From Geobacter sp. DSM 9736 (GTDB taxonomy: Bacteria > Desulfobacterota > Desulfuromonadia > Geobacterales > Geobacteraceae), in NCBI RefSeq assembly GCF_900187405.1, contig NZ_LT896716.1, positions 806,001 to 870,000 on the forward strand: a stretch of DNA of 64,000 nucleotides, given 5' to 3'. Of this stretch, positions 7,081 to 61,949 are shown piece by piece. Within the stretch, counting starts at the first letter, position 1, and every line of letters begins with the position of its first letter. The notes beneath the pieces are model-generated. The model saw only the letters and a list, made by a program, of their open reading frames with translations, was not told the origin of the DNA and searched no databases. Both the position numbers and the translations under genes were made by a program.

Positions 7081-7842
7081 TCAGAACCAGATTCGGACCC
7101 CTGCCGCCAGGGAGAGCTCTTCCGGCTCTCCACCCTCCCGGCGGGTAATGTTCGCCGTTTCGCCCAAATCGCGGCGCCACGTGATGCCGATGTAGGGAGC
7201 GAACTCCCTCTCCATTTCGTAGCGCAGACGAAGGCCCATCTCGATGTTGCTCATTCCGCTCCCCACACCGAATTTCTCGACTTTCTGCACGGCAAGCTCC
7301 GTCTCCACCCGCGGCTGAAGGATCAGCCGCTGCGTCAGGAGCAGATCGTATTCGGCGGTGATCCGGGCGGAGATGTCCCCTTCCTCGCTTATGAACAGGG
7401 AGGGCTCGACCTCGAACCAGTAGGGGGCAACTCCCTGGAACCCAATGACGGCGAATGTCCGGGTCCGGTCGGGGCCGGGACCGTACTTCCACTCCTGTCT
7501 CGCGCCGACCTGAAAGTCCCAGAAGGGGGAGATGAGCCTGCCGTAGAGAACCTGCGCGTCTGTCTCTCCCGCCGGCCTGCCGCTAAGATCATGGGTCCCT
7601 TCGGTTTTGAGCCAGATGCGGTTATAGTCCCCGCCGACCCAGCCGAAGATGTCCCACCGGACCCTGTCCCCCCCATCGGAATCCCTCTGATACTCCAGGA
7701 GGTCGGTGAGAAGGTACCCGATGACGGGGCTGTCATGGACGGGGGAGGGCCACCCCTCACCGGCGCGGGCTTCTCCCCACGTCGTCGCTAGGACCAGGAG
7801 CGGCACCAGCCGAAGAAGCTGACGAAATGATTTCCGCCTCAT
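7081..7842 (-). CDS. pcoB: Copper resistance protein B, outer-membrane β-barrel
   Basis: 253 residues with an N-terminal signal peptide (LLRLVPLLVLATTWGEARAG). The rest is CopB/PcoB-like: HDSPVIGYLLTDLLEYQ, WDIFGWVGGDYNRIWLKTEG, alternating hydrophobic strands, and the final GVRIWF ending in aromatic F as outer-membrane barrels do. It lacks the long Met/His-rich N-terminal region of Pseudomonas CopB. The start codon overlaps the stop of the upstream oxidase gene (ATGA), so the two are translationally coupled. Together they act in periplasmic copper oxidation and sequestration. Confidence 0.9.
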   Translation of the reverse strand: MRRKSFRQLLRLVPLLVLATTWGEARAGEGWPSPVHDSPVIGYLLTDLLEYQRDSDGGDRVRWDIFGWVGGDYNRIWLKTEGTHDLSGRPAGETDAQVLYGRLISPFWDFQVGARQEWKYGPGPDRTRTFAVIGFQGVAPYWFEVEPSLFISEEGDISARITAEYDLLLTQRLILQPRVETELAVQKVEKFGVGSGMSNIEMGLRLRYEMEREFAPYIGITWRRDLGETANITRREGGEPEELSLAAGVRIWF

Positions 7843-9635
7843 TCCCCCACCCCCTGCGCCGGTTGCGATACCGAGACCACTCTGAACATTCCCGCTTCCA
7901 TGTGGTAGAGGATATGGCAGTGGAAAGCCCAGTCACCGGGGGCGTCGGCTGTGACGAGGAAGGAGAGCCTCTCGGCTGCCTTTACGTTGATGGTGTGCTT
8001 GAGGGGGTTTAGCGGGCCGTTGCCGTTGTCCAGGATCATCCACATGCCGTGCAGATGCATGGGATGCTCCATCATCGTGTCGTTCACGAAGGTGACGCGC
8101 AGCCTCTCCCCGTACCGAAAGCGTATGGGGGTAGGGTCGTCGGAATACTTCTTCCCGTTGATCGACCAGATGAACCGCTCCATGTTCCCGGTAAGGTGGA
8201 GTTCGATTTCCCGTTCGGGCTCACGTGTGTCGTAGAATGGTTTGAGTGCCCGCAGGTCGCTGTACGTCAGGACCCGCCACTGCATGTTCTCCAGCCCCGT
8301 TCCCGGCTCGTCGAGGCGGCTTCTCGACATCATGGCGACCATGGCGTTGCCGGGACCGTGGCGATCAGGGCCGTGCATTACGGCGCCGGCCCTCCCCCCT
8401 TTGGGGGAAAAGCCGTGCGCGTCGTGAGCCGCGCCGTGGACGGCTTCTCCATCACCGGGCATCTTCATACCTCCACGGTCCATGCCGCCGTTGTGAACCA
8501 TTCCCATGTCCGCCATCGTCAGAACCGGCCGTTTGCGGCGCTCCGGGATCGACACAGCCACCCCCTCCCGCGGCGCGAGAGTACCGCGGGCGTATCCGCT
8601 GCGGTCCATTGATTCGGCAAAGATGGTGTAGGCACGATCATCCTTCGGCTCGACGATCACGTCATAGGTTTCCGCAACCGCGATGCGGAACTCCTCCACC
8701 GTCACCGGCTCCACGTACTGGCCGTCCGCCAGCACGACCGTCAGGGGAAGGCCCGGTATGCGGATGTCCATGATGCTCGCTGCAGATGCGTTGATGAAGC
8801 GGAGCCGCACCTTTTCTCCCGGCCGGAATAACCCGGTCCAGTTGGCCCGTGAGGAAAGACCGTTTATCAGATACGTGTAGGTGGCGCCGGTCACATCCTG
8901 GAGGTCGGTGGGGTCCATCTGCATCTTTCCCCATTCGAGACGGTCCTTGACGGTATCCCAAAATCCGTTGCGGCCTGCGTCCCGGATGAAGTCTCCCATG
9001 GTCCTCTTCTGGTAGTTGTAGTAGCCGCCTTCCTTTTTGAGGTTCCTGTAGACCTCTTCCGGTTTTTCAAACGTCCAATCGGAGAGCATGACGACATATT
9101 CCCTGTCGAATTCGAACGGTTCCGGCTCGCGGGGATCGATGATCAAGGGCCCGTACTGCCCGGACTGTTCCTGGAAGGCGCTGTGGCTGTGGTACCAGTA
9201 GGTCCCGCTCTGCTTGAGGGTGAAGCGGTAAGTGAATGTTTCTCCCGGTGCGATGCCGGCGAAGCTGACGCCGGGAACGCCGTCCATTTCGTGGGGAAGG
9301 AGGATGCCGTGCCAGTGAACGGAGGTCGGCTGGTCAGGCATCATGTTGGTGACGCGGATCACCGCCTCCTCACCTTCGCGAAAGCGGAGAAGCGGCCCCG
9401 GAACCGATGCGTTCATCGCTACCGCGTTTCCCCATTCTCCGTCGACCCGGAGTTTGAACTGGTGAACCGAAATGTCGTATCGGCCGGGGCCGGACGCCGG
9501 TTTCGGAACCATGGAGGTGGTTGCGGCGAAGACAGGCGTCGGCGGCAACATCCTGCCGAAGGCCGTAACGGTCCCAATTGCAACGAACCCACGGAGAAAT
9601 TTCCTTCTCGTAACATCCTGCACATTCTCGTTCAC
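7839..9635 (-). CDS. pcoA: Copper resistance multicopper oxidase (CopA/PcoA family)
   Basis: 598 residues, starting at a GTG (9633–9635) preceded by AGGAG; longer frames upstream lack a site. The N-terminus has a Tat signal (TRRKFLRG), so the folded enzyme goes to the periplasm. Copper-site motifs are all present: HWHGILLPHEMDG, YWYHSHSAFQEQSG, HPMHLHGMW, and HCHILYHMEAGM for T1/T2/T3 copper. A Met/His-rich insert (MADMGMVHNGGMDRGGMKM and following) is typical of CopA/PcoA. It oxidises Cu(I) and binds copper. First gene of the operon with copB and the lipoprotein. Confidence 0.95.
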   Translation of the reverse strand: MNENVQDVTRRKFLRGFVAIGTVTAFGRMLPPTPVFAATTSMVPKPASGPGRYDISVHQFKLRVDGEWGNAVAMNASVPGPLLRFREGEEAVIRVTNMMPDQPTSVHWHGILLPHEMDGVPGVSFAGIAPGETFTYRFTLKQSGTYWYHSHSAFQEQSGQYGPLIIDPREPEPFEFDREYVVMLSDWTFEKPEEVYRNLKKEGGYYNYQKRTMGDFIRDAGRNGFWDTVKDRLEWGKMQMDPTDLQDVTGATYTYLINGLSSRANWTGLFRPGEKVRLRFINASAASIMDIRIPGLPLTVVLADGQYVEPVTVEEFRIAVAETYDVIVEPKDDRAYTIFAESMDRSGYARGTLAPREGVAVSIPERRKRPVLTMADMGMVHNGGMDRGGMKMPGDGEAVHGAAHDAHGFSPKGGRAGAVMHGPDRHGPGNAMVAMMSRSRLDEPGTGLENMQWRVLTYSDLRALKPFYDTREPEREIELHLTGNMERFIWSINGKKYSDDPTPIRFRYGERLRVTFVNDTMMEHPMHLHGMWMILDNGNGPLNPLKHTINVKAAERLSFLVTADAPGDWAFHCHILYHMEAGMFRVVSVSQPAQGVGE

Positions 9636-9789
9636 TGCTACACTCCTGTGTTGCCCGGCGAAATCTCCAGGTGCCGTCACAACCGGCCTCACGACATCCG
9701 TACTTATTTTAACCAGTTTTTCTCATTTTACTACGGACCCGAATTTCATTACTGACGATTCGGTGGTCATGGCGAAAGTGGCTGGACGC

Positions 9790-13930: not shown

Positions 13931-14944
13931 TCAGCAAATCCGCGGCAGTTGTTCACCTGCCAGCATCTCAACCGCCCGGATTCCTCCGATGGAGGTTTGC
14001 AGCTGTACTTTTCCGCCGCCGGTTCCGGTTACTTCACCGATAATCGCACTGTTCTTCCCGAGAGGGTGCTTACGCATGCGGGCCAGCACCCGGTCGACAG
14101 CATCCGGAGCTACAAAAAGTAAAAGCTTGCCTTCATTCGCCACGTAGAGCGGGTCCAGCCCCAGCAATGAACAGGCTCCCTTGACTGCTTTTCCCATCGG
14201 CAGAGCCGCTTCTTCAAGCATTACCGTTACCTCGGACTGAACGGCTATTTCCTTGATGGTTGTCGCAACTCCTCCTCGGGTCGGATCGCGTAACACATGG
14301 ACAGCCTCCCCCCCTTCTTTCAGAAGCTCTTCAACCAGCCCGTTGAGAGGGGCGCAGTCACTGGTAATTTCCGTTTCCAGTTCCAGCCCCTCCCGTGAAG
14401 CCAGCACGGCAATCCCGTGGTCCCCGATGGTGCCGTTGATTATGATTCTGTCCCCCTGCTGGGCGCGGCTACCGTCGATCCGATAATCATAGTCGTAAAC
14501 GCCTACGCCTGAAGTATTTATAAATATCTTATCCGCCTTGCCTCGGGGGACGACCTTGGTATCCCCGGTTACGATTGTTACCCCGGCTTGGTCTGCCGCT
14601 TGCCGCATTGCCTTCAGAATAATGGTTAGGTCGCCTCGGCTGAACCCCTCTTCGATTATCAGTCCCACGCTCAGGCATAGCGGGCGGGCGCCCACCATGG
14701 CCAGATCGTTGACAGTGCCATATACCGCCAGCTCGCCTATGTTGCCGCCCGGAAAGAAGATCGGGTCAACAACATAAGAGTCGGTGGTAAAGGCGAATCG
14801 CCTTCCTCCATGTGAGACAAGTGCGGCATCGTTCTGCTCGTCAGGTGACTTGCCCGATAGTACGGGAATGATCAGACCGGACAGCAACTGGTGGGAAAGT
14901 TTCCCGCCGCTGCCATGGCCAAGTAGGATGAGGTCTTTATCCAA
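13931..14944 (-). CDS. hypE: Hydrogenase maturation protein HypE
   Basis: About 337 residues. HypE dehydrates the carbamoyl group passed to its C-terminal cysteine by HypF, giving the thiocyanate that supplies cyanide to the hydrogenase iron. The invariant C-terminal PRIC is present with Cys last. ATP-binding features of the PurM-like fold are visible (HGSGGKLSHQLL, NDAALV, GTVNDLAMVGARP, RDPTRGGVATTI). The start is TTG at 14944, seven bases after AGGAG; a TTG two codons upstream would be too close to the site. It is separated from hypD by 295 bp (14945–15239) in which I see no gene. Confidence 0.93.
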   Translation of the reverse strand: MDKDLILLGHGSGGKLSHQLLSGLIIPVLSGKSPDEQNDAALVSHGGRRFAFTTDSYVVDPIFFPGGNIGELAVYGTVNDLAMVGARPLCLSVGLIIEEGFSRGDLTIILKAMRQAADQAGVTIVTGDTKVVPRGKADKIFINTSGVGVYDYDYRIDGSRAQQGDRIIINGTIGDHGIAVLASREGLELETEITSDCAPLNGLVEELLKEGGEAVHVLRDPTRGGVATTIKEIAVQSEVTVMLEEAALPMGKAVKGACSLLGLDPLYVANEGKLLLFVAPDAVDRVLARMRKHPLGKNSAIIGEVTGTGGGKVQLQTSIGGIRAVEMLAGEQLPRIC

Positions 14945-15239
14945 GTGCAATCTCCTTGTTTATAGTAGATGTAATTGCGTGAGCGATGAAAGGTCGCTTC
15001 CGCTGCGTGCGTCTGTCTTTGCGGGCTTGACGGGTCGATCTCAGCGGCGGTTTACGCCGCAAGTGGGGGGACAGCCGTTCCGGCGACCGGCCCCGGTATC
15101 TCCGCTCCACCGAACCGCCATCTCTCATAAATTCAGGAAGAAAGCACAATAGGGGGTTCAGAGCAGAGAAACTCGATGTCAACAAAGCAGGCGGAATAGT
15201 CCGGGCTGTCAGCGTTGCCTCGCGTGGTTATAGTTCCGC

Positions 15240-16331
15240 CTAAAGCCCGTATTTGAAGACTGCCGCACAGGTCCCCTCCGAGGATACCATGCACGCTCCG
15301 ACGGGAGATTCAGGTGTACACGCGGCACCAAAGAGCGGACACTGGGGAGGAGATGCCTTCCCTTTGAGAATTTCCCCGCATAAGCAGGCCAGCGGCTCCT
15401 GCGGCTCTTCGACCGTGACTGGTATAGAGACTTCCGCGTCAAAGGCTCTGTATCGTTCCGCAATTGCCAGCCCGCTTCCGGGAATGACGCCCAGCCCGCG
15501 CCATGCGGCGTCGCAGACGGTGAAAACCTGTGCCAGGACCTCCTGGGCTCTCCGGTTTCCTTCCCGCTTCACCACGCGGCTGTATTGGATTTCCACCTCG
15601 CAGCGCCCTTCCATTACTTGGCGCGCCAGCATTTCCACTCCCTGCATTATGTCCGTCGGCTCGAAACCGGTCACGACACACGGCACATGGTGTTCTTCCG
15701 CAAGGGCTCGGTACGCATCCGCACCGATAATGGCGCTGACATGGGCAGGGCATATATAACCGTCGATTCCAAGTTCCGGATCCGAAGTGAGAACTTCCAT
15801 CGCATAGGGAATCGTCTTGTTGTTTGCGAGCACGAAGTAATTATCCAGCCCCAGCTGATCAGCTGCCAGAATGCTCCCCGCAATGGGAGATGCGGTTGTC
15901 TCGAAACCCACTCCGAGAAATACCACCCGGAGGTTTGGGTTGTGCTGCGCCAGCTTGACGGCATCGAGCGGAGAATAAACAATGCGGATGTCTGCACCAC
16001 GGGCGCGCTCTTCTATCAGCGACGAACTGGAGCCGGGAACCCGAAGCATGTCGCCGAAGCTGGCTACTATGGTTCGCGGCAGACGGCTGTATGCAACAGC
16101 CTTGTCCACATACCCGATGGGAGTTACGCAGACGGGACAGCCCGGTCCGGAAATGAGGCGGACCTGGGCGGGGAGCAGGCTGCGAATCCCGTATTGATAG
16201 ATGGACATGGTGTGGGTGCCGCAAACCTCCATGAAGGCCATCGGCTTCTCCCTTCCCGACACGGCCTCCCGGATCCTTGCCGCCAACCCAAGAACGGTGG
16301 CTTTGTCCCGAAACTGATCAAGATAGTTCAT
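15240..16331 (-). CDS. hypD: Hydrogenase maturation protein HypD
   Basis: 363 residues. HypD is the Fe-S scaffold that, with HypC, assembles Fe(CN)2CO for [NiFe] hydrogenases. Visible family motifs are FMEVCGTHTMSIYQYGI (active-site Cys), GPGCPVCVTP (redox cysteines), GFETTASPIAGS and CGEILKGKASPPQCPLFG (cluster cysteines). Its ATG overlaps the hypC stop by four bases (ATGA), typical of this pair. Confidence 0.96.
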   Translation of the reverse strand: MNYLDQFRDKATVLGLAARIREAVSGREKPMAFMEVCGTHTMSIYQYGIRSLLPAQVRLISGPGCPVCVTPIGYVDKAVAYSRLPRTIVASFGDMLRVPGSSSSLIEERARGADIRIVYSPLDAVKLAQHNPNLRVVFLGVGFETTASPIAGSILAADQLGLDNYFVLANNKTIPYAMEVLTSDPELGIDGYICPAHVSAIIGADAYRALAEEHHVPCVVTGFEPTDIMQGVEMLARQVMEGRCEVEIQYSRVVKREGNRRAQEVLAQVFTVCDAAWRGLGVIPGSGLAIAERYRAFDAEVSIPVTVEEPQEPLACLCGEILKGKASPPQCPLFGAACTPESPVGACMVSSEGTCAAVFKYGL

Positions 16332-16558
16332 AGCATATCCTCCGGCCGGAAGAGCTCGCGCATCAGTTCCAGGGTCTGCAGGGCATCTTCTTCATCCAGG
16401 CGGGATATGGCAAACCCCGCATGGACGACTATAAAATCCCCCCCCCCGACCTCTTCATCCATGAGCATCAGGCTCGCTTCCCGTCTGACTCCATCTATTT
16501 CCGCCACTGCATTTGTGCCTTCAATGCCGATAATCCTCATGGGGACACCTACACACAT
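16328..16558 (-). CDS. hypC: Hydrogenase maturation chaperone HypC
   Basis: 76 residues beginning MCVGVPMRI; Cys2 is the essential residue that binds the iron centre and the large-subunit precursor. The rest fits the OB-fold family (VAEIDGVRREASLMLM, GDFIVVHAGFAISRLDEEDA). It overlaps hypD and follows hypF by 25 bp. Confidence 0.96.
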   Translation of the reverse strand: MCVGVPMRIIGIEGTNAVAEIDGVRREASLMLMDEEVGGGDFIVVHAGFAISRLDEEDALQTLELMRELFRPEDML

Positions 16559-16583
16559 TATCCTGTCTCCTTCTCGGGTTCGC

Positions 16584-18852
16584 TTAAACAGCCATGCGGC
16601 CGGCCACTACCGCTTGGCCGAGGGCAAGCCCTCCGTCATTGGGAGGAACAAGCCGGTGGACAAATACATCGTAGCCCCTTTGTTGAAGTGCATGGAACAA
16701 GCCTTCAGTAAGGAGCCTGTTCTGGAAGACACCTCCCGACAAGACAACTCGGTTTACCCCCGTATCCTCGCGGATCTTGCCGCACATATCGGCAGACGCG
16801 GCCACGATCGTATCGTGGAAAGAGCGGGCAAGCAAGGGGGGAGGTTGTCCCGCCAGCATGCCCTCGACAACGGCAGCCATGGTCGGTGTGCAGTCCGCTA
16901 CCAGCATTTCATTTTTTCGCACGATCTGGAAGGGTAGGGCATCCTTTTTCTGACAGCGCTCCGCGAGCGCTTCCAGTTCCAAAGCGGCCTGCCCTTCATA
17001 TGAGACCCTGTTCCTGAGGCCGATGATTGCCGCTACGGCATCGAACATTCTGCCGCAGCTGGACGTGGACGGTGAATTTATCCCGCTATCCATCATGCGA
17101 GCCAGTGTCTTCTTGTTACTCTGGCCGAGCGCCTCCAGGAAGGGCAGGGGCAGCTCAAAAGCTTTGTCACCGTAACAGGCACGGCAATAGGCGAGGGCCA
17201 TGCGGTAAGGCTCCTTTACAGCGGCATCTCCACCGGGCATCGGGACTTGACTGAAGTGGCCGATGCGACGGTAGGAACGGCAGTCCCCGAGCAGGAATTC
17301 TCCCCCCCAGATGGTCCCGTCTGGCCCATAGCCGGTGCCGTCGAAAATGACGCCTATGGCTTGCTCCTCGACCCGGTTTTCCGCCAGACATGAAGCCAGA
17401 TGGGCATGATGGTGCTGGACCCCCACGGTCGGAAGCCCCATCTGAGCTGCAAAGGTGGTTGAGTAATAATCAGGATGAAGATCATGTGCGACGATCTCCG
17501 GCTCCACATCCAGGACGTGCCGTAGGTGGGAAGCGGTTTCCTCTAGGAATCGTTGTACGGACACATTCTTCAAATCTCCGATATGCTGGCTCAGAAAGGC
17601 TGTATTGCCGCGGGTGATGCATGAAGTGGCCTTGAGTTCGGCACCTGTGGCTAAAACAGTTCGCTGAACTGCTGGGATTTGTATGCCGCGGGGAGCGAAG
17701 CCTCTGGAGCGCCGCAGGAAAAGCGGTCCTCCCTGAAATACCCGAATGACGGAATCGTCGGTAGCGGTATGGATCCGCCGGTCATTAGTCAGGAAAAAAT
17801 CGGCGATTCCTGCCAAGCGAGCAACGGCATCTTCCTCGGCATAGGCAATCGGTTCATCGCTTACATTGCCGCTGGTCATGACGAGGGCTGTGAAGTTTTC
17901 CCGCAGAAGCAGGTGGTGTAGCGGTGTGGATGGCAGCATCACTCCGAAGTAATCGTTAGCCGGTGCAACCATTCGGGCGATAACGTTTGCTTCTCTTTTT
18001 TTCAGAAGAACGACAGGTCGTTCCGTTCCGGAAAGAAGCTGCTGCTCGATTTTTCCGCATACCGCGTAGCTGCTTACTTCCGCAAGGCCGGCTGACATCA
18101 GGGCGAAAGGTTTTTCATCACGTCTCTTTCGCCGCCGCAGCTCCAATACGGCTTCTTCGTTGCAGGCATCCACAGCCAGATGGTAGCCGCCAATCCCCTT
18201 GACCGCGACTATCTTCCCCTCACGTAGAAGACCTATAGTTGCCGTCACGGACGCATCACCACACCTTCCGGTTTCACGACCGGATGCGTCGAGCAGCCTC
18301 AACCGAGGTCCGCACGTCGGACACGCATTGGGTTGGGCATGAAATCTTCGATCAGCCGGATTGTAGTACTCGGCCAGGCAGTCATCGCACAAGTCGAAAT
18401 CAGACATGGTGGTTAGTGCCCGGTCATAGGGCGTCCCGGTTATAATCGAGTAGCGCGGGCCGCAGTTGGTGCAGTTGATGAAGGGATAACGGTATCTGCG
18501 GTTCGCCGGATCGAACAATTCATGCAGGCAGTCGGGGCAGACATCGCAGTCCGGGCTGATGTGCGTGTTGCTCTCTCCTCCACCGCTGGAGAGAATAAGA
18601 AAGGAATCATCTCCATTCACAGGAAGCTCTGCTTTTTTAACGCGAGCTATGACTGCAAGGGGTGGAGCGTGCGGCTCCACCTCGAAGCAAAATTTATCGA
18701 CGGCGGCACAGCTTCCTTCCGCTTCAAGTTCGACACCGCCTGGAGTGTTGCGGACCCAACCATTGATACCGTGGCGTGCGGCCAACTTGTAGATGAAAGG
18801 CCGAAACGACGCCTTGAACGATACCCTCTATTTCAATTCTTACCCGCTTCAT
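16584..18852 (-). CDS. hypF: Carbamoyltransferase HypF, apparently frameshifted near the N-terminus
   Basis: HypF makes carbamoyl-AMP and loads HypE. From the ATG at 18852 the frame reads MKRVRIEIEGIVQGV and then continues wrongly; the expected GFRPFIYKLAARHG continues in another frame from about 18806. Two bases are missing after GTCG, in the acylphosphatase motif VQGVGFRPF. Downstream everything is intact to 16584 (733 codons): zinc fingers CDVCPDC…CTNCG and CDDC…CPTCG, a YrdC-like domain, and the Kae1-like domain with HHHAHLASCLAENRV, FDGTGYGPDG and VLSGGVFQNRLL. Adding two bases gives 756 residues, the normal length. It is either a sequencing error, a real null mutation, or an N-terminally shortened protein starting at TTG 18785. 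Confidence 0.9.
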
Positions 18853-18866
18853 GGAACGCCTGCGAT

Positions 18867-19694
18867 TTATTTCCTGTTATCGTACATTTGACTTCCTGAA
18901 CAATCTAACGGCTCAGCGGACTTTGCCGCCGCAACCCCTGCCGCGATCCACCGGTACCAGGCCTCGATCCCTGTGCCGGTTAGAGCCGAGACCTCGAAAA
19001 TCAGTATCCGTGGATTTACACGCCACGCCATCTCACGGCATTTACGGATATCGAACATCACGTGTGGAGCCAGATCAACCTTGTTTATGAGCATCACGTC
19101 GGCGGCCCGGAACATATGAGGGTATTTGAGCGGCTTGTCCTCTCCCTCTGTTACGCTCAGAACCGCCACCTTGTGCTGCTCCCCCAGGTCGAATGAAGCA
19201 GGACAAACCAGATTTCCCACATTCTCGATAAAAAGCAGATCAAGACCGTCAATACTCAATTCATCTACTGCGTGGGAAACCATATGAGCGTCAAGGTGAC
19301 AGCCGGCACCGGTGTTGATCTGTCGTACGGGCGCTCCAGTTGCTGCTATACGGACTGCATCGTGATCCGTCTGCTGATCCCCTTCGATGACAGCGGAGCG
19401 GAACCTCACGCGCAGGTCGTTTAGCGTTCTCTCCAGGAGAGTCGTCTTTCCCGATCCGGGCGAACTCACCAGATTCAGCACGAACATGCCGTGATCTGAG
19501 AACCTTCTGCGGTTTCTGCGGGCGAACAGGTCATTCTTCGCCAGAACATCGGTCTGGATCGAGAGGCGCTTCGTTTCATTCTTGCTGCCGTCATTGTGAT
19601 GATGAAAATGGCTGTTGGGGCCATCATCATAATGATGATCACGGGAATGGTCATGATGGGAGTGATCGGCAGAACAGCCGCATGTGATGCACAT
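18867..19694 (-). CDS. hypB: Hydrogenase nickel-incorporation GTPase HypB
   Basis: 275 residues. GTP-dependent nickel insertion into the large subunit, working with HypA. The N-terminus has MCITCGC and a His-rich stretch (DHSHHDHSRDHHYDD and FHHHND) that can store nickel. Then come the P-loop SSPGSGKTTLLE, the switch and metal-site segment GAGCHLDAHMVSHAV, ENVGNLVCPASFDLG, and the G4 motif NKVDLAP. Its ATG abuts the hypA stop directly. Length is normal. Confidence 0.96.
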   Translation of the reverse strand: MCITCGCSADHSHHDHSRDHHYDDGPNSHFHHHNDGSKNETKRLSIQTDVLAKNDLFARRNRRRFSDHGMFVLNLVSSPGSGKTTLLERTLNDLRVRFRSAVIEGDQQTDHDAVRIAATGAPVRQINTGAGCHLDAHMVSHAVDELSIDGLDLLFIENVGNLVCPASFDLGEQHKVAVLSVTEGEDKPLKYPHMFRAADVMLINKVDLAPHVMFDIRKCREMAWRVNPRILIFEVSALTGTGIEAWYRWIAAGVAAAKSAEPLDCSGSQMYDNRK

Positions 19695-20027
19695 TCAGGA
19701 AACCTCCAGTTCTTTCACCCTCAGCTCTTCGCCGACGGTCATCGTGACCAGATGACTGCCGCAAGCCGGGCACGGGTCGTAACAGGTATGCATAGAGAAG
19801 ACAGTATTGCATTGGTAGCATGCCCCTGCGGCGGGAATCCGGTGAATCACTAGCTTAGCCCCTTCCAGCAGGGTTCCTTTAACGCAGGCATCAAAACAGA
19901 ACTCAATCGCTTCCGGGATTACACCCGAAAGCTCGCCTATTTCCATTGTAACAGAGGTGACGGGGCACCCGCCGACGCTGTTTTCGCATATATCGACGAC
20001 GCTCTGTACTATTGACAATTCATGCAT
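19695..20027 (-). CDS. hypA: Hydrogenase nickel-incorporation protein HypA
   Basis: 110 residues starting MHELSIVQSVVD, where His2 is the nickel ligand. The structural zinc site is CYQCNTVF … CPACGSH (two CxxC). Family segment IGELSGVIPEAIEFCFDA is present. First gene of the leftward hypA-B-F-C-D(-E) run, with a σ54-type promoter about 155 bp upstream. Confidence 0.96.
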   Translation of the reverse strand: MHELSIVQSVVDICENSVGGCPVTSVTMEIGELSGVIPEAIEFCFDACVKGTLLEGAKLVIHRIPAAGACYQCNTVFSMHTCYDPCPACGSHLVTMTVGEELRVKELEVS

Positions 20028-20530: not shown

Positions 20531-21706
20531 ATGATCATTTCCCGTCGCACATTCCTCAAACTGGCAACGGCAGCCGCTTCACTCGGCCTAACCGGCGTCG
20601 ATCTTTTCAGGCTCCGGGAGGTGTTTGCAAGCGGCACCGCGCCTCCCGTTATCTGGCTCCAGGGGGCCGTTTGCACCGGGTGCAGTATTTCGCTGTTGAA
20701 CTCGACGGCGCCGGCGATTGATGACATCCTCTTCAATACAATCAGTCTTGAATACCACCCCAATCTCATGACAGCAGCCGGTGAACCGGCCATTGCTACG
20801 CTGACCGGTGCAGCCGAAGCCCATGACGGGGAATTCATCCTATGCGTCGAGGGGGGCATTCCCACGAGCATCGATGGGCGTTATTCGATTATCGGCGAGA
20901 GGAACGGCGAGCCCTGGACGATGCTCGATGCCGTTATGGAGTTAGGGTGCAAGGCGAAATATGTGCTGGCGGTCGGTACCTGCGCATCATTCGGCGGAGT
21001 CGTGAAGCCGTCTGAATATACCGGAGTGCGGAGACTTGCAGAGGTGCTTCAGGGAAGCACAACCAGCCCGGTGATCAATCTGCCGGCCTGTCCCGTCAAT
21101 CCGATCGTTCTTGTGGGAACGCTTGTCCGTCTGCTGACTTCCGGGATGCCGCCGCTGGACTCATGGGGACGACCTGCCGACTATTATGGAACCACGGTAC
21201 ACCATATCTGTCCGCGTCTTACCACTCCCATGGTTAGCCAGATCGGCGTCTTCGGCTGTTACGAGCATGTCGGCTGCAAAGGTCCCCACACCAGTTTCAC
21301 CTGCCCCAATCTGAAGTGGAACAATGGCGTCAACTGGTGCATCGACAAGACCAACAGTCTCTGCATCGGCTGCTCGTCCCCGAATTTCCCCAGCACCCCT
21401 TTCTACGGCAAGCTTGAGGAAATCATGCCCTGCTGCGTTACCTGCGAGCAGTGCAGCACCTGCGTTGACTGCTCCAAGTGCGCCAATCTCGGGAGCTGTA
21501 CCGACTGCGTGGATTGTTCCAACTGTTCCGTCTGCGCGGACTGCAGCAATGAGGAGAAGTGTCCGGACTGCGCAAACGCTGCGCTCTGTGCCGACTGCCC
21601 GTCAAACGAGCAGTGCGCCTGCTATGCAGGTGCCGGTGCCGCTGCCCCTCAAGTGATCAGTGAGCCGCCTGTTACGCCGGAACCTCAGCCTGAACACCAA
21701 CACTAA
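20531..21706 (+). CDS. [NiFe]-hydrogenase small subunit with a cysteine-rich C-terminal extension
   Basis: 391 residues. The Tat signal (SRRTFLKLATAAASLGLTG) sends the folded dimer to the periplasm. Fe-S cluster ligands are present: CTGCS (proximal), GTCASFGGV, CPVNP, then the distal and medial sets HHICPR, GCYEHVGCKGP, CPNLKWN and CIGCSSPNFP. The usual C-terminal membrane helix is absent. Instead residues 301–364 hold 19 cysteines, mostly as CxxC steps (CEQCSTCVDCSKC … CADC), ending in a Pro/Glu/His tail. I know of no standard small subunit with this tail. It might bind further Fe-S clusters or metal, or dock an electron acceptor. AAAGGAGAG lies before the ATG. Confidence 0.92.
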   Translation: MIISRRTFLKLATAAASLGLTGVDLFRLREVFASGTAPPVIWLQGAVCTGCSISLLNSTAPAIDDILFNTISLEYHPNLMTAAGEPAIATLTGAAEAHDGEFILCVEGGIPTSIDGRYSIIGERNGEPWTMLDAVMELGCKAKYVLAVGTCASFGGVVKPSEYTGVRRLAEVLQGSTTSPVINLPACPVNPIVLVGTLVRLLTSGMPPLDSWGRPADYYGTTVHHICPRLTTPMVSQIGVFGCYEHVGCKGPHTSFTCPNLKWNNGVNWCIDKTNSLCIGCSSPNFPSTPFYGKLEEIMPCCVTCEQCSTCVDCSKCANLGSCTDCVDCSNCSVCADCSNEEKCPDCANAALCADCPSNEQCACYAGAGAAAPQVISEPPVTPEPQPEHQH

Positions 21707-21724
21707 AAATCTAAGGAGAATTCA

Positions 21725-23089
21725 ATGGGCAGCATTATCACGATCGATCCCGTGACGAGGATAGAGGGCCATCTCAAGGTAAAGGTGGACCTCAACGACA
21801 ACAAGAAAGTGCAAAAGTCGTACATGACGGGGAACCTGTATCGGGATTTCGAGAACATCCTTAAGGGAAGAAAGCCGTGGGACGCCGTACATATAACTCA
21901 GAGAATCTGCGGCGTCTGCCCCATTTCACACGCCATAACAGCCACCAAGGCAGCGGAGCGGATGGCAGGGTTCGTCCCAGACCATCAGGCACTCCTGATA
22001 AGGGCGATTATTCAAAGCGCATATTTCATCTCCGACCACATCCTGCACTTCTATCACCTGAACCTTCTCGACTACATTTGCCCCCCGGACATCGCTCCGC
22101 TGCGGCCTGCATACAATCGTGACATGCGATTCAGCGCGGACCAGACCGAAAAGCTCGTGAACAACTACGTCGAAGCGCTGAAAATACGTCGGCAAGCTCA
22201 GGAGGTAGTGGCAATCCTGGCCGGGCGGATGCCGCATGTCATGAGCATTGTTCCGGGAGGTGTGACTCAGGCGCCCTCACATGAGCAGATTCATGCTATC
22301 AAGGGATATCTTCCGGCCATTATGGACTTCGTCCTCAACAAGTATTATCCCGACGCACATCTCCTTTCCCAGGTCTATGCCGACTACTTCAGGATCGGAA
22401 AAGGAATCGGGAATCTTCTCTGCTTTTCCGCATTCGATCTGCCGCATGGAGAGGCGGTCTTCCGCCAGGGGTTGTTTACCGCCATGGAGAGGGAGTCGCT
22501 GAGCTTGCACGATATAAGGGAATTCGTGCGGTATGCATACTACTCAAGCCCTACCGGACTTCATCCCAGTCATGGTGAGACAACACCATCGTATGGAAGA
22601 TCCCCCGGCTATACTTGGTTGAAGGCGCCGCGGCACCGCGGGAGGCCCTACGAAACGGGTCCCTTGGCCAGAATGACGGTCAATGGCTACTACCGGGGTG
22701 GCTGTTCCGCCATGGATCGGATCCTGGCAAGGGCGGAGGAGACGAAACTGCTTGCGGAACGCCTTCCGCTGTGGGTTCATGCTCTGGTTCCCGATGCGGT
22801 TTCCTACACGGATCTCGCGCTTCCTCCATCCGGAACCGGAGTCGGACTTACCGAGGCCCCACGGGGCGCATTGGGGCATTGGATGGAATGTTCTTCCGGA
22901 GGGATGATTTCCCGCTACCAGATAATTACTCCCACCTGCTGGAATGCGTCGCCCCGTGACGACAACGGTGTTCCGGGACCCATTGAGCAGGCACTGGTTG
23001 GCACCTATGTGGAAGATATGAACCAACCCATTGAGCTCTTGCGTATTATCCACTCTTTCGACCCATGTACAAGTTGCTCAGTCCACTAG
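21725..23089 (+). CDS. [NiFe]-hydrogenase large subunit, lacking a cleavable C-terminal extension
   Basis: 454 residues. It carries the NiFe site: L1 motif RICGVCPISH (~59–68) and L2 motif DPCTSCSVH at the very end. Other family segments are IDPVTRIEGHLKVKV, the central TWLKAPRHRGRPYETGPLARM region, and GALGHWM. Most such subunits end 15 or more residues after the L2 histidine, and a dedicated protease removes that peptide after nickel insertion. Here the stop codon follows His directly, so the protein is made in its mature form, and no HyaD/HupD-type protease gene is in the window. It lies 18 bp after the small subunit gene and is exported with it. Confidence 0.94.
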   Translation: MGSIITIDPVTRIEGHLKVKVDLNDNKKVQKSYMTGNLYRDFENILKGRKPWDAVHITQRICGVCPISHAITATKAAERMAGFVPDHQALLIRAIIQSAYFISDHILHFYHLNLLDYICPPDIAPLRPAYNRDMRFSADQTEKLVNNYVEALKIRRQAQEVVAILAGRMPHVMSIVPGGVTQAPSHEQIHAIKGYLPAIMDFVLNKYYPDAHLLSQVYADYFRIGKGIGNLLCFSAFDLPHGEAVFRQGLFTAMERESLSLHDIREFVRYAYYSSPTGLHPSHGETTPSYGRSPGYTWLKAPRHRGRPYETGPLARMTVNGYYRGGCSAMDRILARAEETKLLAERLPLWVHALVPDAVSYTDLALPPSGTGVGLTEAPRGALGHWMECSSGGMISRYQIITPTCWNASPRDDNGVPGPIEQALVGTYVEDMNQPIELLRIIHSFDPCTSCSVH

Positions 23090-23137
23090 CAATTTGGGTT
23101 GAACCAGCTTAACGCAAGGCCTCAAAGAGGCGCGTAC

Positions 23138-24133
23138 ATGGAAAATAAGACAGGGCTGAACGGAAAAACTTTCAGGATCGTTGGTCTGGGCATTTCGGTG
23201 GCTGTGATATCGGGGCTGCACTTCCTAGTTCCCACCGAACCGCACTGGAACCATCAGGTCCACATTGTCCTGCGCAAGCTGTATTTCCTCCCGCCTGTAA
23301 TGGCTGGGGCTTGGTTCGGCCTGAGAGGAGCATTTGTCGTCACATCAGCGGTAAGCATTCTTTTCACTATCCATGCATTTCTCGACTGGCCGCAAAATTA
23401 TATGGAGCAGGCGAACCAGCTAGGGGAACTTGCGAGTTTCTGGGTGGTAGGGCTTGTCCCGGGATACCTGTTCGAACGCCAGAAGAAACTTCTTGTTGGT
23501 ATTGCACAAGCAAACGAAGAGACCCTCATGGCTCTCGTATCGGCTCTCGACCTGAGGGAGCGGAATACCAGGCTCCATTCTCAACGTGTCAAGGAATACA
23601 CACTTCTTATGGCAGATCGATTCGGCGTTTCAGAAGCAGAAAAAAAAGTGATAGGGATCGGTGCACTTCTTCACGATGTGGGCAAGATCGCAGTTCCCGA
23701 CCATATCCTGTTGAAGCCGTCCCAGCTTAGTAAAGAGGAGTGGAAAGAGATGCGCAGGCATCCGGAGGAAGGCTTCAAGCTGCTGCAGCGGATCGACTTT
23801 CTGCGACAGCCCGCAGAAATAGTATATACGCACCATGAACGTTTTGATGGCAGTGGCTATCCCAGAGGGCTCAAAGGTGAAGATATCCCATTGGGAGCAA
23901 GGCTATTCATGGTCGCCGATGTCTTTGACGCTCTGACCTCGGAACGGCCGTATCGTGTTCCTTTGCGGTATGGGGAGGCGGCAGCGGATATTGCCGCAAA
24001 CAGCGGCAAACATTTTGACCCTGCGGTGGTCGATGTCTTCCAGCAGATAGATCCCGAAGAATGGGTGCGTCTTCGAGAGCGGCTTACAGATGCCGATGGT
24101 GAAATGCCGCCTGCGACGACTTCCACTCCGTAA
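23138..24133 (+). CDS. Membrane HD-GYP protein (probable c-di-GMP phosphodiesterase), copy 1
   Basis: 331 residues from the ATG at 23138 (AGAGG site). Residues ~10–120 are a multi-helix membrane input domain with the signature HIVLRKLYFLPPVMAGAWFG. The C-terminal half is HD-GYP: HDVGKIAVPDHIL (HD), HHERFDGSGYPRGLKGEDIP (contains the GYP motif) and MVADVFDAL. HD-GYP domains usually hydrolyse cyclic di-GMP. It is 48 bp after the hydrogenase large subunit and probably in that operon. The protein at 26.7 kb is a close paralogue, and the kinase at 31.7 kb has a related input domain. Confidence 0.85.
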   Translation: MENKTGLNGKTFRIVGLGISVAVISGLHFLVPTEPHWNHQVHIVLRKLYFLPPVMAGAWFGLRGAFVVTSAVSILFTIHAFLDWPQNYMEQANQLGELASFWVVGLVPGYLFERQKKLLVGIAQANEETLMALVSALDLRERNTRLHSQRVKEYTLLMADRFGVSEAEKKVIGIGALLHDVGKIAVPDHILLKPSQLSKEEWKEMRRHPEEGFKLLQRIDFLRQPAEIVYTHHERFDGSGYPRGLKGEDIPLGARLFMVADVFDALTSERPYRVPLRYGEAAADIAANSGKHFDPAVVDVFQQIDPEEWVRLRERLTDADGEMPPATTSTP

Positions 24134-26116: not shown

Positions 26117-26671
26117 ATGAACGTGGTTAATGCAAGATCCATCTGCAGCATAATTGTCGCGGCCGCCTTGGGTCTGCCGGCGGCGAGTCTCCTCGTCATC
26201 TATTCCGGCTTCTACAATGTAGCCGCGACAAGCGAGCATTGGACAATCACAAAGGCAGTCATGCAGATTACTATGGAGCGTTCAGTAGTCTTTCATGCGA
26301 GAAACTTCAAAGCCCCCTCGTATCCACTCTCAAAAGCAGATGGATTTTCGGGTTACAATGAAATGTGCGCCGGATGCCACGGAGCGCCGGGTGTAGATCC
26401 CGGTGAAGTCGGAAAAGGGCTGAACCCAAGACCCCCTGATCTTGCAGTTGCCGCAAAAAAGTTAAAACCCTCGGAAATCTACTGGGTTGTCGAGAACGGG
26501 ATAAGAATGACCGGTATGCCCGCGTTCGGTCCAACACATTCCGAAAAAGAGCTCTGGTCCGTCACAGCTTTCGTGAAGGGGCTTCCTGAGCTGTCTGCAT
26601 CGGAATACAGAGGGCTGAAGCAATCGTTGAATGGGAGTCATCATCACATTCGTGGCGATATGAAGCACTGA
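26117..26671 (+). CDS. Monohaem c-type cytochrome, membrane-anchored or secreted
   Basis: 184 residues with a strong AAGGAGG site. The N-terminal hydrophobic helix (IIVAAALGLPAASLLVIYSG) is either an anchor or a signal. One haem motif, CAGCH (about residue 89), and a distal Met in RMTGMPAFGPTHSEKE make it a class-I type cytochrome c. The tail NGSHHHIRGDMKH is His-rich. It lies directly before a second HD-GYP gene. It could pass electrons from hydrogenase or oxidases, but that is inference. Confidence 0.9.
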   Translation: MNVVNARSICSIIVAAALGLPAASLLVIYSGFYNVAATSEHWTITKAVMQITMERSVVFHARNFKAPSYPLSKADGFSGYNEMCAGCHGAPGVDPGEVGKGLNPRPPDLAVAAKKLKPSEIYWVVENGIRMTGMPAFGPTHSEKELWSVTAFVKGLPELSASEYRGLKQSLNGSHHHIRGDMKH

Positions 26672-26716
26672 TCTGGCCCTGAATCGGGTTCGAAGATGAT
26701 TGGCGGGAGATTGAGA

Positions 26717-27655
26717 ATGAGTGACGAAAGCGGAAAGACAAAAGCTGCAATTCTCATCTTTTTGATATTCGTTATCACTTTTTTTCATTTCTCCATCCCC
26801 ACCGAAGATCATACTTCCCACATGGTTCACATCATTCTGCGAAAGTTGTATTTTCTTCCGCCTGTGATGGCAGCGGCATGGTTTGGTCTGAAGGGAGCCA
26901 CACTCGTCACATCGGTCATCAGTGTGGCGTTTCTGTCTCATGCCGTTCTGGATTGGCCCGGTGATTATATGGAGCAGGCAAATCAGTTCGGGGAATTGGC
27001 GACCTTCTGGGTAGTTGGACTTGTTCCGGGTGTTCTGTTTGACCGCCAGAAGGCTTTACTGCAAGACCTTGCAAAATCTCAGGAAGAGACGCTTCTGGCT
27101 CTGGTTTCAAGCCTCGACCTGAGGGGAAAAAATACTCCCCTCCATTCCCAGCGGGTAAGGGAATACACCGTGCTTTTAGCGGAACGAGCCGGCGTGTCTG
27201 AAAAGGAGAAGAAATCAATAAGCCTTGGTGCTCTCTTGCACGATGTAGGCAAGATTTCCGTTCCTGACACCCTATTTCTAAAGCATGCCGGCTATTCCCC
27301 GGAAGAGTTGAAAATATTTCGTGCACATCCGGAGAAGGGATACAGGCTATTGCAGAAGATCGGCTTTCTTCGCGATGCAGCGGAAATCGTCCTTACCCAC
27401 CAGGAAAGATATGACGGCAGCGGATATCCCAGGGGCCTGAAAGGTGAAGAAATACCATGGGGAGCCAGGCTTTTCATGGTTGCGGAGATTTTTGATGAGT
27501 TGACCGGATATCATGCCGGCCTTGATTACGATCACGCCACCGAAATGATAAGAAAAAAAAGCGGTTCCTGGCTCGATCCCGCTGCCGTGGAGATTTTTAT
27601 TAATATCACACCTGCTGAATGGGAAAGAGTTCGTAATCAATATCCTCCGACTTGA
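26717..27655 (+). CDS. Membrane HD-GYP protein (probable c-di-GMP phosphodiesterase), copy 2
   Basis: 312 residues from the ATG at 26717 (GGGAG site; an upstream ATG at 26696 is less well placed). The architecture matches the 23.1 kb protein: a membrane input domain with HIILRKLYFLPPVMAAAWFG, then HD-GYP with HDVGKISVPDTLF and HQERYDGSGYPRGLKGEEIP. It differs at the HD-GYP C-terminal side, where FDEL replaces FDAL. It probably arose by duplication of the same module. The partner cytochrome gene is upstream and the next genes bind metals. Confidence 0.85.
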   Translation: MSDESGKTKAAILIFLIFVITFFHFSIPTEDHTSHMVHIILRKLYFLPPVMAAAWFGLKGATLVTSVISVAFLSHAVLDWPGDYMEQANQFGELATFWVVGLVPGVLFDRQKALLQDLAKSQEETLLALVSSLDLRGKNTPLHSQRVREYTVLLAERAGVSEKEKKSISLGALLHDVGKISVPDTLFLKHAGYSPEELKIFRAHPEKGYRLLQKIGFLRDAAEIVLTHQERYDGSGYPRGLKGEEIPWGARLFMVAEIFDELTGYHAGLDYDHATEMIRKKSGSWLDPAAVEIFINITPAEWERVRNQYPPT

Positions 27656-34449: not shown

Positions 34450-35712
34450 ATGAAACGTATAGTTCTCGCTTTGTTAGTCTGCGGTCTCTGGATTTCGCAA
34501 GGGGCGCGTGCCGAAGAGCCCGAAAATCTTCAACGGCTCGTGGAGACGGCTCTCTCCAACAACCCGGAGATCAAGGCTTCGTCGGCGCGATGGGAGATGT
34601 TCAGGAACCGGATCGCCCAGGCAAAATCGTTCGACGACCCGATGCTCATGCTCAAGATCCAGAATGGGCTCGTGAAGGACCCGCTGAGTTTCCGCCGCGA
34701 TCCGATGACCCAGAAGGTGATTGGGATAAGCCAGCAACTCCCCTTCTGGGGGAAGCGGGCTCTCAGGTCGGAAGTGGCTGCGAAAGAGGCGGAATCGTAC
34801 CAGTGGCAGATCGAGGAACGCAAGCTCGAACTTGCCCGGATGGTGAAGGAAAGCTGGTACCAACTGTGGTTCGTTGAGAAGGAACTCGACATCGTCGACA
34901 AGAACATCAAGATCCTCGATGATTTTATCGCACTTGCCGAAACCAAGTATTCCGTCGGCCAAGGTGTACAGCAGGACGTGCTGAAAGCCCAGGTGGAGCG
35001 GTCGAAGATGCTCGATATGAGGATAACCCTGGAGCAGCAGCGGAAATCGGTGCAGGCAGCCATGAATGCCCTGTTGTACCGCAGCGGAGAGAGCTCGTTC
35101 GGGAAAATCGAGGATTTCACCCCGCGCAAGGTGTCGTCCTCGGTCGATACTCTCAGGGCAACCGCAAAGGAAAACAGGCCGCTTTTGAAAAGCCTGAAAG
35201 CCGAGATCGACAAGGGATCTGCCGGGCACAAGCTCGCCGAGAAGGAATACTACCCCGATTTCAACATCTCGCTTGAATACATGCAGCGCGATCGAATCGA
35301 TGAGATGGAAGTAGGAGACGACATGTACTCACTTGGAGTGACTTTCAATCTCCCGGTCCAGCGCGCACGGCGGCAGGCGATGATTGCGGAGTCTTCATCT
35401 GAAATCAGGATGGCGACGGAAGAGCTTAACAGCCAGAACAATACCATCAATCAAGGTATCACTGATCTTCTCGCCCAGCTCGAGCGGCGCGACAAGTTGA
35501 TCGCTCTTTATCGTACTGGGATACTTCCGCAGGCGGAGCAGGCCCTTGAGTCGGCGGTGATCAGCTATCGCGTAGGGAAGGTCGACTTCCTCACGCTTCT
35601 CGACAGCCGGGTAACCCTCTTCAACTACGAAAGGGAATACTACGATTCCCTGGCGGATTACGAGATGAAGCGTGCGCAGCTTGAAGCGCTGGTGGGCAGG
35701 GAATTGCCGTAG
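34450..35712 (+). CDS. CusC/TolC-type outer-membrane efflux protein
   Basis: 420 residues with a signal peptide (IVLALLVCGLWISQGARAEE). The rest is the TolC-family long-helix fold with two repeats, coiled-coil-like stretches such as QLPFWGKRALRSEVAAKEAE and EQALESAVISYRVGKVDFLT. It forms the outer-membrane duct for the following membrane-fusion and RND proteins. Length is a little shorter than TolC. It has a σ54-type promoter. Confidence 0.9.
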   Translation: MKRIVLALLVCGLWISQGARAEEPENLQRLVETALSNNPEIKASSARWEMFRNRIAQAKSFDDPMLMLKIQNGLVKDPLSFRRDPMTQKVIGISQQLPFWGKRALRSEVAAKEAESYQWQIEERKLELARMVKESWYQLWFVEKELDIVDKNIKILDDFIALAETKYSVGQGVQQDVLKAQVERSKMLDMRITLEQQRKSVQAAMNALLYRSGESSFGKIEDFTPRKVSSSVDTLRATAKENRPLLKSLKAEIDKGSAGHKLAEKEYYPDFNISLEYMQRDRIDEMEVGDDMYSLGVTFNLPVQRARRQAMIAESSSEIRMATEELNSQNNTINQGITDLLAQLERRDKLIALYRTGILPQAEQALESAVISYRVGKVDFLTLLDSRVTLFNYEREYYDSLADYEMKRAQLEALVGRELP

Positions 35713-35755
35713 TTTTCAATGATTTCGTTTTTTAATTTTCCGAGAGGTTATGATC

Positions 35756-52204: not shown

Positions 52205-52795
52205 ATGCCCGGGAAGCCAATCGCTGCCGTACTCATGCTTCTACTTCCGGCGACCGTCAATGCGGCTGAGATCAGGCAAAGACCCTTCGAGTATTCATTC
52301 GAAGTAGCAAAAGCGCAGACCGATGATGTTTTTGCCATTTGTTCCAACTGTCCTGACGATCACATTTCCGCACTGCCTGCGCCTCCTCAACTGGCACTCC
52401 GTTTCGGGCAGAAGGCAGAGCCAACGGAAACACCAATCAGAACCGCAGCAGTGCGTGAAGTCAGCAAACCCGGGGCTACACTGCTGGGAACCATACATTT
52501 TCAATTGGACAGCGCGGTGTTGCCGGGGACTGAACGCTCAAAGCTCGAGGAGGTTATCAGCAGTATTCCGGCAGGGACGGCAGTGAACATCGATGGCTAC
52601 ACATGCAACCTCGGCAGTGCTGCTCATAACCTGCGCTTGTCGTTCAGCAGGGCACGAAGGGTTGCCGGGTATCTGGAATCGAAGGGCGTTCGGGTTCGGA
52701 AAGTCAGAGGGTTGGGCAAGTGCTGCGCGGTGTCCGACGACAGGCGGCTCAACCGTCGGGTTGAGATAACCGCTCGTGAAAAGGAGGGTGAGTGA
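52205..52795 (+). CDS. OmpA-like protein leading the transfer operon
   Basis: 196 residues. CAGGAGGA before the ATG, signal peptide IAAVLMLLLPATVNAA. The C-terminal OmpA-like domain is recognisable: TIHFQLDSAVLPGTERSKLE, VNIDGYTCNLGS, LRLSFSRARRVAGYLES, NRRVEITA. Usually this fold binds peptidoglycan; here it would anchor the conjugation apparatus. It overlaps the next gene by four bases. Confidence 0.8.
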   Translation: MPGKPIAAVLMLLLPATVNAAEIRQRPFEYSFEVAKAQTDDVFAICSNCPDDHISALPAPPQLALRFGQKAEPTETPIRTAAVREVSKPGATLLGTIHFQLDSAVLPGTERSKLEEVISSIPAGTAVNIDGYTCNLGSAAHNLRLSFSRARRVAGYLESKGVRVRKVRGLGKCCAVSDDRRLNRRVEITAREKEGE

Positions 52796-53577: not shown

Positions 53578-53592
53578 AAGGAGCAGCAAAAA

Positions 53593-53901: not shown

Positions 53902-53923
53902 TCCAAAGTATCCGAGAGACGTC

Positions 53924-54193: not shown

Positions 54194-54207
54194 AACGGAG
54201 GCACCAG

Positions 54208-54786: not shown

Positions 54787-54796
54787 AGGGATTGTG

Positions 54797-57517: not shown

Positions 57518-57519
57518 CC

Positions 57520-61933: not shown

Positions 61934-61949
61934 GGTCGGGGTAAGACAG

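Follow-up and report, generated by a model that had tools for sequence, protein, structure and literature searches.

A rare, conserved cysteine array at the C-terminus of a predicted Tat-exported [NiFe]-hydrogenase small subunit in Geobacter sp. DSM 9736

What might a run of 19 cysteines be doing when it is placed directly behind the cluster-bearing body of a [NiFe]-hydrogenase small subunit? The question is raised by a 64,000-nucleotide stretch of the Geobacter sp. DSM 9736 genome (contig NZ_LT896716.1, positions 806,001 to 870,000; hereafter the window), for which a first-pass annotation, made from the letters alone, had reported 19 cysteines, mostly spaced by two residues, between residues 301 and 364 of such a subunit. 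That count proved exact, and the segment to which it was assigned, 21425-21706, is in frame and runs from residue 299 to the stop codon. As judged from the sequence comparisons detailed below, this is a rare and conserved C-terminal cysteine array on an otherwise known type of hydrogenase, for which a mechanism can be proposed in conditional terms. The features of the locus are collected in Table 1.

Table 1. Hydrogenase, maturation and neighbouring genes discussed in the text, with positions counted from the first letter of the window.
Feature	Position	Strand	Basis or remark
[NiFe]-hydrogenase small subunit, 391 aa	20531..21706	+	PF01058 2.2e-25, PF14720 1.2e-15
Tat-type signal region, residues 1-35 (SRRTFLK), end approximate	20531..20635	+	TIGR01409 18.4 bits, cut-off 16.7
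Enzyme body, residues 36-298	20636..21424	+	aligned ligands of three clusters
Array of 19 cysteines at residues 301-364, chiefly (Cxx)n	21431..21622	+	position count
Pro/Glu/His-rich terminal piece, residues 365-391	21623..21703	+	near-neutral from residue 366
[NiFe]-hydrogenase large subunit, ends DPCTSCSVH	21725..23089	+	PF00374 2.2e-110
hypA, maturation	19695..20027	-	TIGR00100 over cut-off
hypB, maturation	18867..19694	-	TIGR00073 over cut-off
hypF, maturation, start codon uncertain	16584..18785	-	TIGR00143 over cut-off
hypC, maturation	16328..16558	-	PF01455 8e-24
hypD, maturation	15240..16331	-	TIGR00075 over cut-off
hypE, maturation	13931..14950	-	TIGR02124 over cut-off
Multicopper oxidase	7842-9692		over Pfam cut-offs
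Multicopper oxidase candidate	24207-25793		matches only under curated cut-offs
Small c-type cytochrome gene	26117-26671
RND outer-membrane factor	34450-35712
CusB-like protein with HMBD	35750-37147
RND pump	37223-40369

Up to residue 298, the small subunit is of a familiar kind. Its scores exceed the cut-offs of PF01058 (89.3 against 27), PF14720 (58 against 27) and TIGR00391 (185.6 against 179.5), and its best solved relative is chain A of PDB entry 2wpn (3.1e-67, residues 2-292). With the small subunits of group 1 periplasmic [NiFe]/[NiFeSe] enzymes (HydDB groups 1a and 1b), to which that chain belongs, the protein has in common the signal region, the body and the ligands of three clusters, including, as in the 2wpn chain, the fourth cysteine of the medial site (C270). 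The aligned ligands form three groups, i.e., C48/C51/C151/C187, C258/C270/C278/C281 and H224/C227/C243/C249, which by analogy with the family would be those of the proximal, medial and distal clusters, respectively; across the 11 sequences of alignment A1, ten of the 12 positions are invariant and the other two, C48 and C51, nearly so. The signal region passes its TIGR model, with the Pfam TAT_signal model staying under its cut-off (15.9 against 22.7). Taken together, the domains, the three-cluster ligands and the Tat signal place the protein among the small subunits of group 1 [NiFe]-hydrogenases. The enzyme does not have the marks of a [NiFeSe] hydrogenase: (i) the NCBIfam NiFeSe models score under their cut-offs (NF045520, 267.8 against 470; NF033181, 493 against 600; NF045518, 446.9 against 780), and (ii) there is no active-site selenocysteine, as the large subunit reads DPCTSC without an in-frame stop (translation table 11). 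In Table 1 of the HydDB paper, the periplasmic group 1a, which includes NiFeSe variants, and the prototypical group 1b are given the role of electron input to sulfate, metal and other respirations (PMC5037454).

The partner subunit has a peculiarity of its own. It stops at residue 454, directly at the terminal motif listed in Table 1; a 60%-identical protein of 478 residues, encoded at a Desulfosporosinus locus (L039), runs 24 residues further. Termination at this very motif is common to both carriers of the array, i.e., the window (21725-23089) and a genome of the same order and another family (G054; locus L031, 2704-4068), and the large subunits of the Bacillota relatives L039, L041 and L043 retain the C-terminal extension. 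No maturation-protease gene was spotted by eye in the ORF lists around the hydrogenase, which fits the missing extension. Directly 3' of the large-subunit genes of L041 and L043, a protease-like ORF is visible by eye. The maturation genes hypA, hypB, hypF, hypC, hypD and hypE lie at 13931-20027, on the strand opposite to the hydrogenase genes.

Beyond residue 298, the match to solved structures ends: in all 43 matched solved sequences the best stretch stops at that query residue or earlier, and none covers the tail. The ORF holds 32 cysteines in total, those of the array being at positions 301, 302, 305, 308, 311, 314, 317, 323, 326, 329, 332, 335, 338, 344, 347, 353, 356, 362 and 364, with successive gaps of 1, 3, 3, 3, 3, 3, 6, 3, 3, 3, 3, 3, 6, 3, 6, 3, 6 and 2. 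The gap is thus three in 12 of 18 cases and a multiple of three in 16, only the values 1, 2, 3 and 6 being used, and not one of 100,000 shuffles of the 64 array residues reached either 12 gaps of three or 16 multiples. Phenylalanine, tyrosine, tryptophan and histidine are absent; there are 10 acidic and 2 basic residues, and 4 valines and 2 leucines in 64. The peak 19-residue hydropathy of the array is 0.61 (frame 1, 1.11; frame 2, 0.48), in agreement with the acidic, anchor-free tail that had been described, and the Pro/Glu/His tail noted after it corresponds to residues 365-391. Searched against Pfam (E up to 10) and NCBIfam (E up to 1), the tail has no match; the top PDB match of the array, which is not significant (E 0.052), is a fragment of TET3, the zinc-binding CXXC zinc finger of that protein. 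Two structure predictions are both of low confidence, with mean pLDDT values of 51.5 and 56.0. With neither a C-terminal helix nor a cytochrome b partner nearby, the subunit is not of the helix-anchored, membrane-bound kind: there is no b-type cytochrome (PF01292) match within the window, as had been annotated, and the two matches in the genome, at 3363146-3363730 (over the cut-off) and 201473-201709 (below it), both lie outside 806001-870000.

Whether so odd a composition is a protein sequence at all can be judged from the second carrier. In G054, the gene is approximately 89-90% identical over the whole length of the small subunit. Over the array region (residues 299-365), 62 of 67 residues are identical, without a single indel and with the spacing kept; all 19 cysteines are retained, five of their codons having changed synonymously. 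The non-cysteine positions of the region are identical in 43 of 48 cases, and in this single pair the cysteines do not stand out from their neighbours in conservation. Nei-Gojobori dN/dS values for the pair amount to 0.058 in the body (residues 36-298), 0.046 in the large subunit and 0.045 in the array (0.079 once the cysteine codons are left out), as against 0.764 in residues 366-391; the silent and replacing changes of the array differ from those of the terminal piece with a Fisher p of 0.0006 (rounded counts). The array differs from that of G054 at 28 bases, 21 of which are third codon positions, and the cysteine frame is better conserved (62/67) than either of the other frames (43/66 and 46/66). 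From the dN/dS values, the third-position changes and the poorer conservation of the other frames, the array is, in this one pairwise comparison, real coding sequence under purifying selection in its cysteine frame.

Two other accounts of these letters were tried and rejected. A frameshifted membrane helix, the possibility of which the first-pass annotation had raised, does not agree with a cysteine frame that is by far the best kept and with the third-position bias; as a counterpoint, frame 1 is open across the array and is the one that reaches a hydropathy of 1.11, slightly above the value of 1.0 by which hydrophobic stretches were marked in the census below. Microsatellite expansion was discarded on the output of Tandem Repeats Finder, which gave nothing inside the array, its single row for 21300-21800 being at 21625-21646, just 3' of it.

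Used alone as a query, the tail was found in the genome of the window (G000) and in G054, and in no other genome searched: among 58 relatives (E up to 0.01) there were two matches, as there were among 277 class-level genomes (E up to 0.001), these being G000 and G054 each time, and 395 genomes drawn from the phylum (E up to 0.001) gave one, G000, in a sample that does not contain G054; the three genome sets overlap one another. Among 72,556 plasmid records, it had no match at E up to 0.001 with the low-complexity filter on. Genome contigs were also scanned by six exact peptide patterns, the reach of which is limited to near relatives. Of 73 genomes from the Desulfosporosinus order, seven match the whole protein at 1e-75 or better, with no array among the loci read. 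Weak whole-protein matches extended to query residue 348 in genome G020, where the tail-only query had no match, and to residue 342 on a Methylovirgula plasmid, the tail itself having no plasmid match under the low-complexity filter. A literature search that took in little of the subscription literature found, in titles and the opening lines of abstracts, no description of such a hydrogenase tail.

To place the array among C-termini of its family, small-subunit ORFs of at least 180 aa were collected by phmmer (E up to 1e-20) from 106 loci that represent part of all matches, 30 of them from places matched in the relative genomes. The 107 hits comprise 81 distinct C-termini, 20 repeats and 6 that were dropped when the last cluster motif was not found; the last 70 residues of these six contain no array. 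After the last cluster motif, the 81 distinct C-termini divide into 2 arrays, 6 that end in CxxCH, 22 with a hydrophobic stretch (marked at a 19-residue hydropathy of 1.0), 49 short ends and 2 other long ones, and except for the two arrays no tail has more than 2 cysteines. The array is thus rare, being found among the 81 only in G000 and G054. This census also corrects the proposal that the tail is "replacing the membrane helix", since the nearest clade read is helix-free and a short end, with 49 of 81 C-termini against 22 hydrophobic ones, is the commoner condition.

The six CxxCH-ended subunits (L002, L003, L045, L052, L053 and L056), from own-family, Desulfuromonadales-type and Nitrospirota genomes, form one clade (100/99) that neighbours the array pair but is separate from it; a second L045 paralogue in the tree is short-tailed and not among them. 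They are the same kind of enzyme and likewise have a cysteine-bearing end, but theirs holds one heme-c-like motif and no array, which would be consistent with the attachment of a single heme c past the last Fe-S cluster. This site may thus be one at which an extra redox centre can be gained (6/81 tails). The array could hold added Fe-S clusters (up to four [4Fe-4S] clusters by ligand count) acting as a wire that leads electrons beyond the distal cluster and on to an acceptor outside the enzyme, e.g., a periplasmic cytochrome. The array follows the cluster-bearing body directly, Fe-S clusters are commonly liganded by CxxC and CxxCxxC units, and a cytochrome b partner is absent from the window, all of which would suit such a wire. 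Classical ferredoxin spacing, however, is CxxCxxCxxxCP, which is not found in an array whose gaps never take the value 4, and Pfam contains no ferredoxin domain or Fer4 match to the tail; by motif and by domain, the array is neither a ferredoxin nor a polyferredoxin. Its few valines and leucines, without any aromatic residue, would offer clusters little hydrophobic shielding, and neither structure model has a confident fold, which in itself says little. We therefore consider an Fe-S wire unlikely.

A maximum-likelihood tree built from 93 bodies pairs the array proteins of the two carriers (100/100), with the Desulfosporosinus protein L039 joining next (100/96); together with L041, these fall within a Bacillota clade (100/99), some rows of which are genomes from the Desulfosporosinus order. 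The tree does not include L040. Beyond G054, the nearest relatives are the Bacillota proteins L039, L040 and L041, whose best segments are 62-51% identical; within the own family, identity does not exceed 48%. With the core nested among Bacillota enzymes and the other own-family small subunits placed elsewhere in the tree, the hydrogenase was probably acquired by horizontal transfer. The Bacillota homologues differ at the C-terminus: L041 (Clostridium polyendosporum) through L043 have a short end, and L040 (Bacillota SKS3), a 62% relative, has in place of the array a tail of Gly, Ser, Thr and Met, none of them with a cysteine array. In L039, also a 62% relative, an assembly gap of unknown bases falls exactly at the tail site. 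Given the low-complexity tail of L040 and the unknown bases of L039 at the same place, a tail at this site may predate the array itself. The refuting condition named in the first-pass annotation, absence of the array in close relatives with the same operon, has a divided answer: the only close relative found, G054 (90%), has the array, and the 62% relatives do not show it, L040 having its Gly/Ser/Thr/Met tail and L039 its assembly gap at that place.

A low-complexity tail at the equivalent site suggests a spacer, and the array might be a rod crosslinked by disulfides, which would form under the oxidising conditions of the periplasm and let it serve as a spacer, an attachment or a protease-resistant end. 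The protein has an export signal, its cysteines are many and regularly placed, and CxxC pairs readily make disulfides. Against this, 19 is an odd number that leaves at least one cysteine free, and indel-free spacing across two families is stricter than a spacer would need; nor is an export signal visible by eye in the phage proteins with (Cxx)n arrays described next. On balance, such a rod seems rather unlikely.

Arrays with a cysteine at every third residue, as in the tail, are a feature of certain phage proteins, which have no hydrogenase body and whose likeness to the tail lies mostly in the spacing. The viral locus L107, which shares its contig with L118, and the near-copy L119 encode a protein with 22 cysteines, the longest chain being 16, and in two ORFs of L120 the cysteine chains reach 37 and 74, gaps of 3 or 6 being included in the count. 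On these IMG/VR contigs, the (Cxx)n proteins (L120, about 291-839 and 1992-2792; L107, 4893-5213) have a similar start, and the array gene of L107 is, by eye, directly 3' of an ATPase-like gene. In Flavobacterium phage FL-1 (KY421186.2, around 26567-26911; L108, 2860-3400), the annotated hypothetical CDS is a Val-Ala-Pro repeat frame; the cysteine frame that overlaps it is open, with a non-repetitive start and end, and this cysteine-every-third-residue frame is probably the real gene.

The hydrogenase tail might accordingly be a generic repeat module of the phage type, acquired by chance fusion and kept for binding a partner or a surface, with no redox or metal role. The array of the viral contig is 39% identical to it (6e-6, among candidates only) and that of FL-1 43.9% (5e-4, the one match in 50,697 phage records), and phrog_15341, a family without an annotated function, matches L107 at 1.2e-9 and the tail weakly (0.0062, 17 bits), the latter driven by cysteine spacing. 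Such low similarity, however, is carried by the spacing and could be convergent; a six-frame search of the window's own genome with phrog_15341 gave no match at 0.001; and the array is not a tandem repeat at the DNA level and is kept by selection at the protein level. The relation to the phage arrays is thus a resemblance, for which homology is only putative, and a generic module without such a role is quite improbable. Within the class, phrog_15341 occurs at 9 places in 8 of 277 genomes, not including that of the window, and 6 of the 9 (L109 to L113, and L117, which overlaps L109) are simple repeats. The stretches of L109 to L113 are microsatellite-like repeats of CLN/CLD, CLA/CLT, SCW, WDC or PCI, that of L111 being interspersed with stop codons. 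By analogy, phage arrays without a visible export signal point weakly to metal binding over disulfides.

Metal is also the theme of the genomic setting. In addition to the efflux and oxidase genes of Table 1, the window encodes an FtrD-like protein, a P-type ATPase of the copper type, which exceeds the cut-off of TIGR01511, and a TraC-like protein, which with 533.5 bits stays under the TIGR02746 cut-off of 567.05. The hydrogenase pair of G054 has CusB-like, outer-membrane factor, HMA, FtrD-like and P-type ATPase genes as neighbours, along with genes for TraF, TraH and a coupling protein. Between the window and 59 kb of G054 there are 21 reciprocal best ORF pairs, one of which is a second frame of the small-subunit gene, in a rearranged order; the small and large subunits are 89% and 92% and the RND pump 89% identical (the latter over 730 residues), and the other 17 pairs are 38-78% identical. 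Thus, either the enzyme moves together with an island for metal resistance and conjugation, or it entered islands of this one kind independently in the two genomes; the link is one of position only, and the hydrogenase is probably mobile. A consistent copper-gene link across the subfamily is not supported, as L041 and L043 show none by eye among ORFs of at least 150 aa; in the 19 kb of L039, a heavy-metal-type ATPase and a multicopper-oxidase-like ORF are visible by eye.

Further features of the window were seen in passing. Three tRNA genes (Arg, Arg, Cys) lie at 902-1251 and conjugation-type genes at 52205-64000; tRNAs on the left with conjugation genes on the right suggest an integrated conjugative element. 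Beside the conjugation genes, an ORF that runs off the window end (61932-64000, + strand) contains C..GY.Y....C repeats, its only match being CBM_14 (3.7e-7). Two similar HD-domain membrane proteins are encoded 3' of the hydrogenase, at 23099-24133 (by Pfam) and 26696-27655 (by eye), the first of which is matched at 65% by a protein encoded close to the G054 hydrogenase.

Weighing these observations, we tentatively favour, at somewhat less than an even chance, a metallothionein-like metal-thiolate tail on a soluble, Tat-exported, two-subunit uptake [NiFe]-hydrogenase that was horizontally gained and lies in a metal-resistance island. Metallothioneins have about 20-30% cysteine and no aromatic residues, and their known pattern is CxC rather than a dominant CxxC. 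The array resembles them in its approximately 30% cysteine and its lack of aromatics; it is unlike them in being the tail of an exported enzyme instead of a small free protein, and in its dominant CxxC, with no CxC except at the very end, and no metallothionein family matched it in Pfam, in NCBIfam or, up to E 1, in the PDB. A review puts the usual cysteine number of eukaryotic metallothioneins at 20, calls bacterial ones rare, and also describes a Tat signal on copper-storage proteins of the Csp1 type (PMC7558416); Tat export of a thiolate copper binder would therefore have a precedent. Metal binding is predicted here from composition (19 cysteines among 64 residues, and none of F, Y, W and H), from conservation (all cysteines kept under selection) and from the setting (both carriers amid CusB/CusC-type and RND efflux, heavy-metal P-type ATPase and FtrD-like genes, with the multicopper oxidase genes of Table 1 in the window as well). 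Against it stand the nearest tail-less Bacillota loci read (L041 and L043), with no copper genes among ORFs of at least 150 aa, and the nearness of metal genes may reflect a shared, apparently mobile island rather than the enzyme itself. Among the options that the first-pass annotation had offered for the tail, i.e., an Fe-S wire, metal binding or a disulfide lattice, the composition favours the metal-thiolate one, and the ferredoxin spacing that the first would call for is absent.

In mechanistic terms, the heterodimer would be exported in folded form by the Tat system, as its signal implies, and would oxidise H2 in the periplasm, passing electrons through its three clusters as is usual in the family. 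The tail would bind several soft metal ions (Cu(I), or those of the Zn/Cd type) via cysteine thiolates, and would probably be filled with metal in the cytoplasm ahead of export. Once in the periplasm, it might shield the Fe-S clusters from soft metals or retain such metals next to the site where electrons leave the enzyme. A bolder version, which we deem very improbable, would make the array a working redox part, in which the distal cluster hands electrons on to a chain of metal centres held by thiolates, either multi-copper or of an unusual Fe-S type; the island would then encode an H2-driven periplasmic soft-metal reductase.

Ultimately, this small subunit offers one defined protein for testing what (Cxx)n arrays mean, such arrays being found elsewhere in phage proteins and microsatellite-like stretches. 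If the tail binds metals or clusters, the enzyme would have a built-in metal store or a longer electron wire at the point where hydrogenases meet their partner. Such a tail would suggest a way either to keep a periplasmic Fe-S enzyme active in the face of copper or cadmium stress, or to connect H2 oxidation with new electron acceptors.
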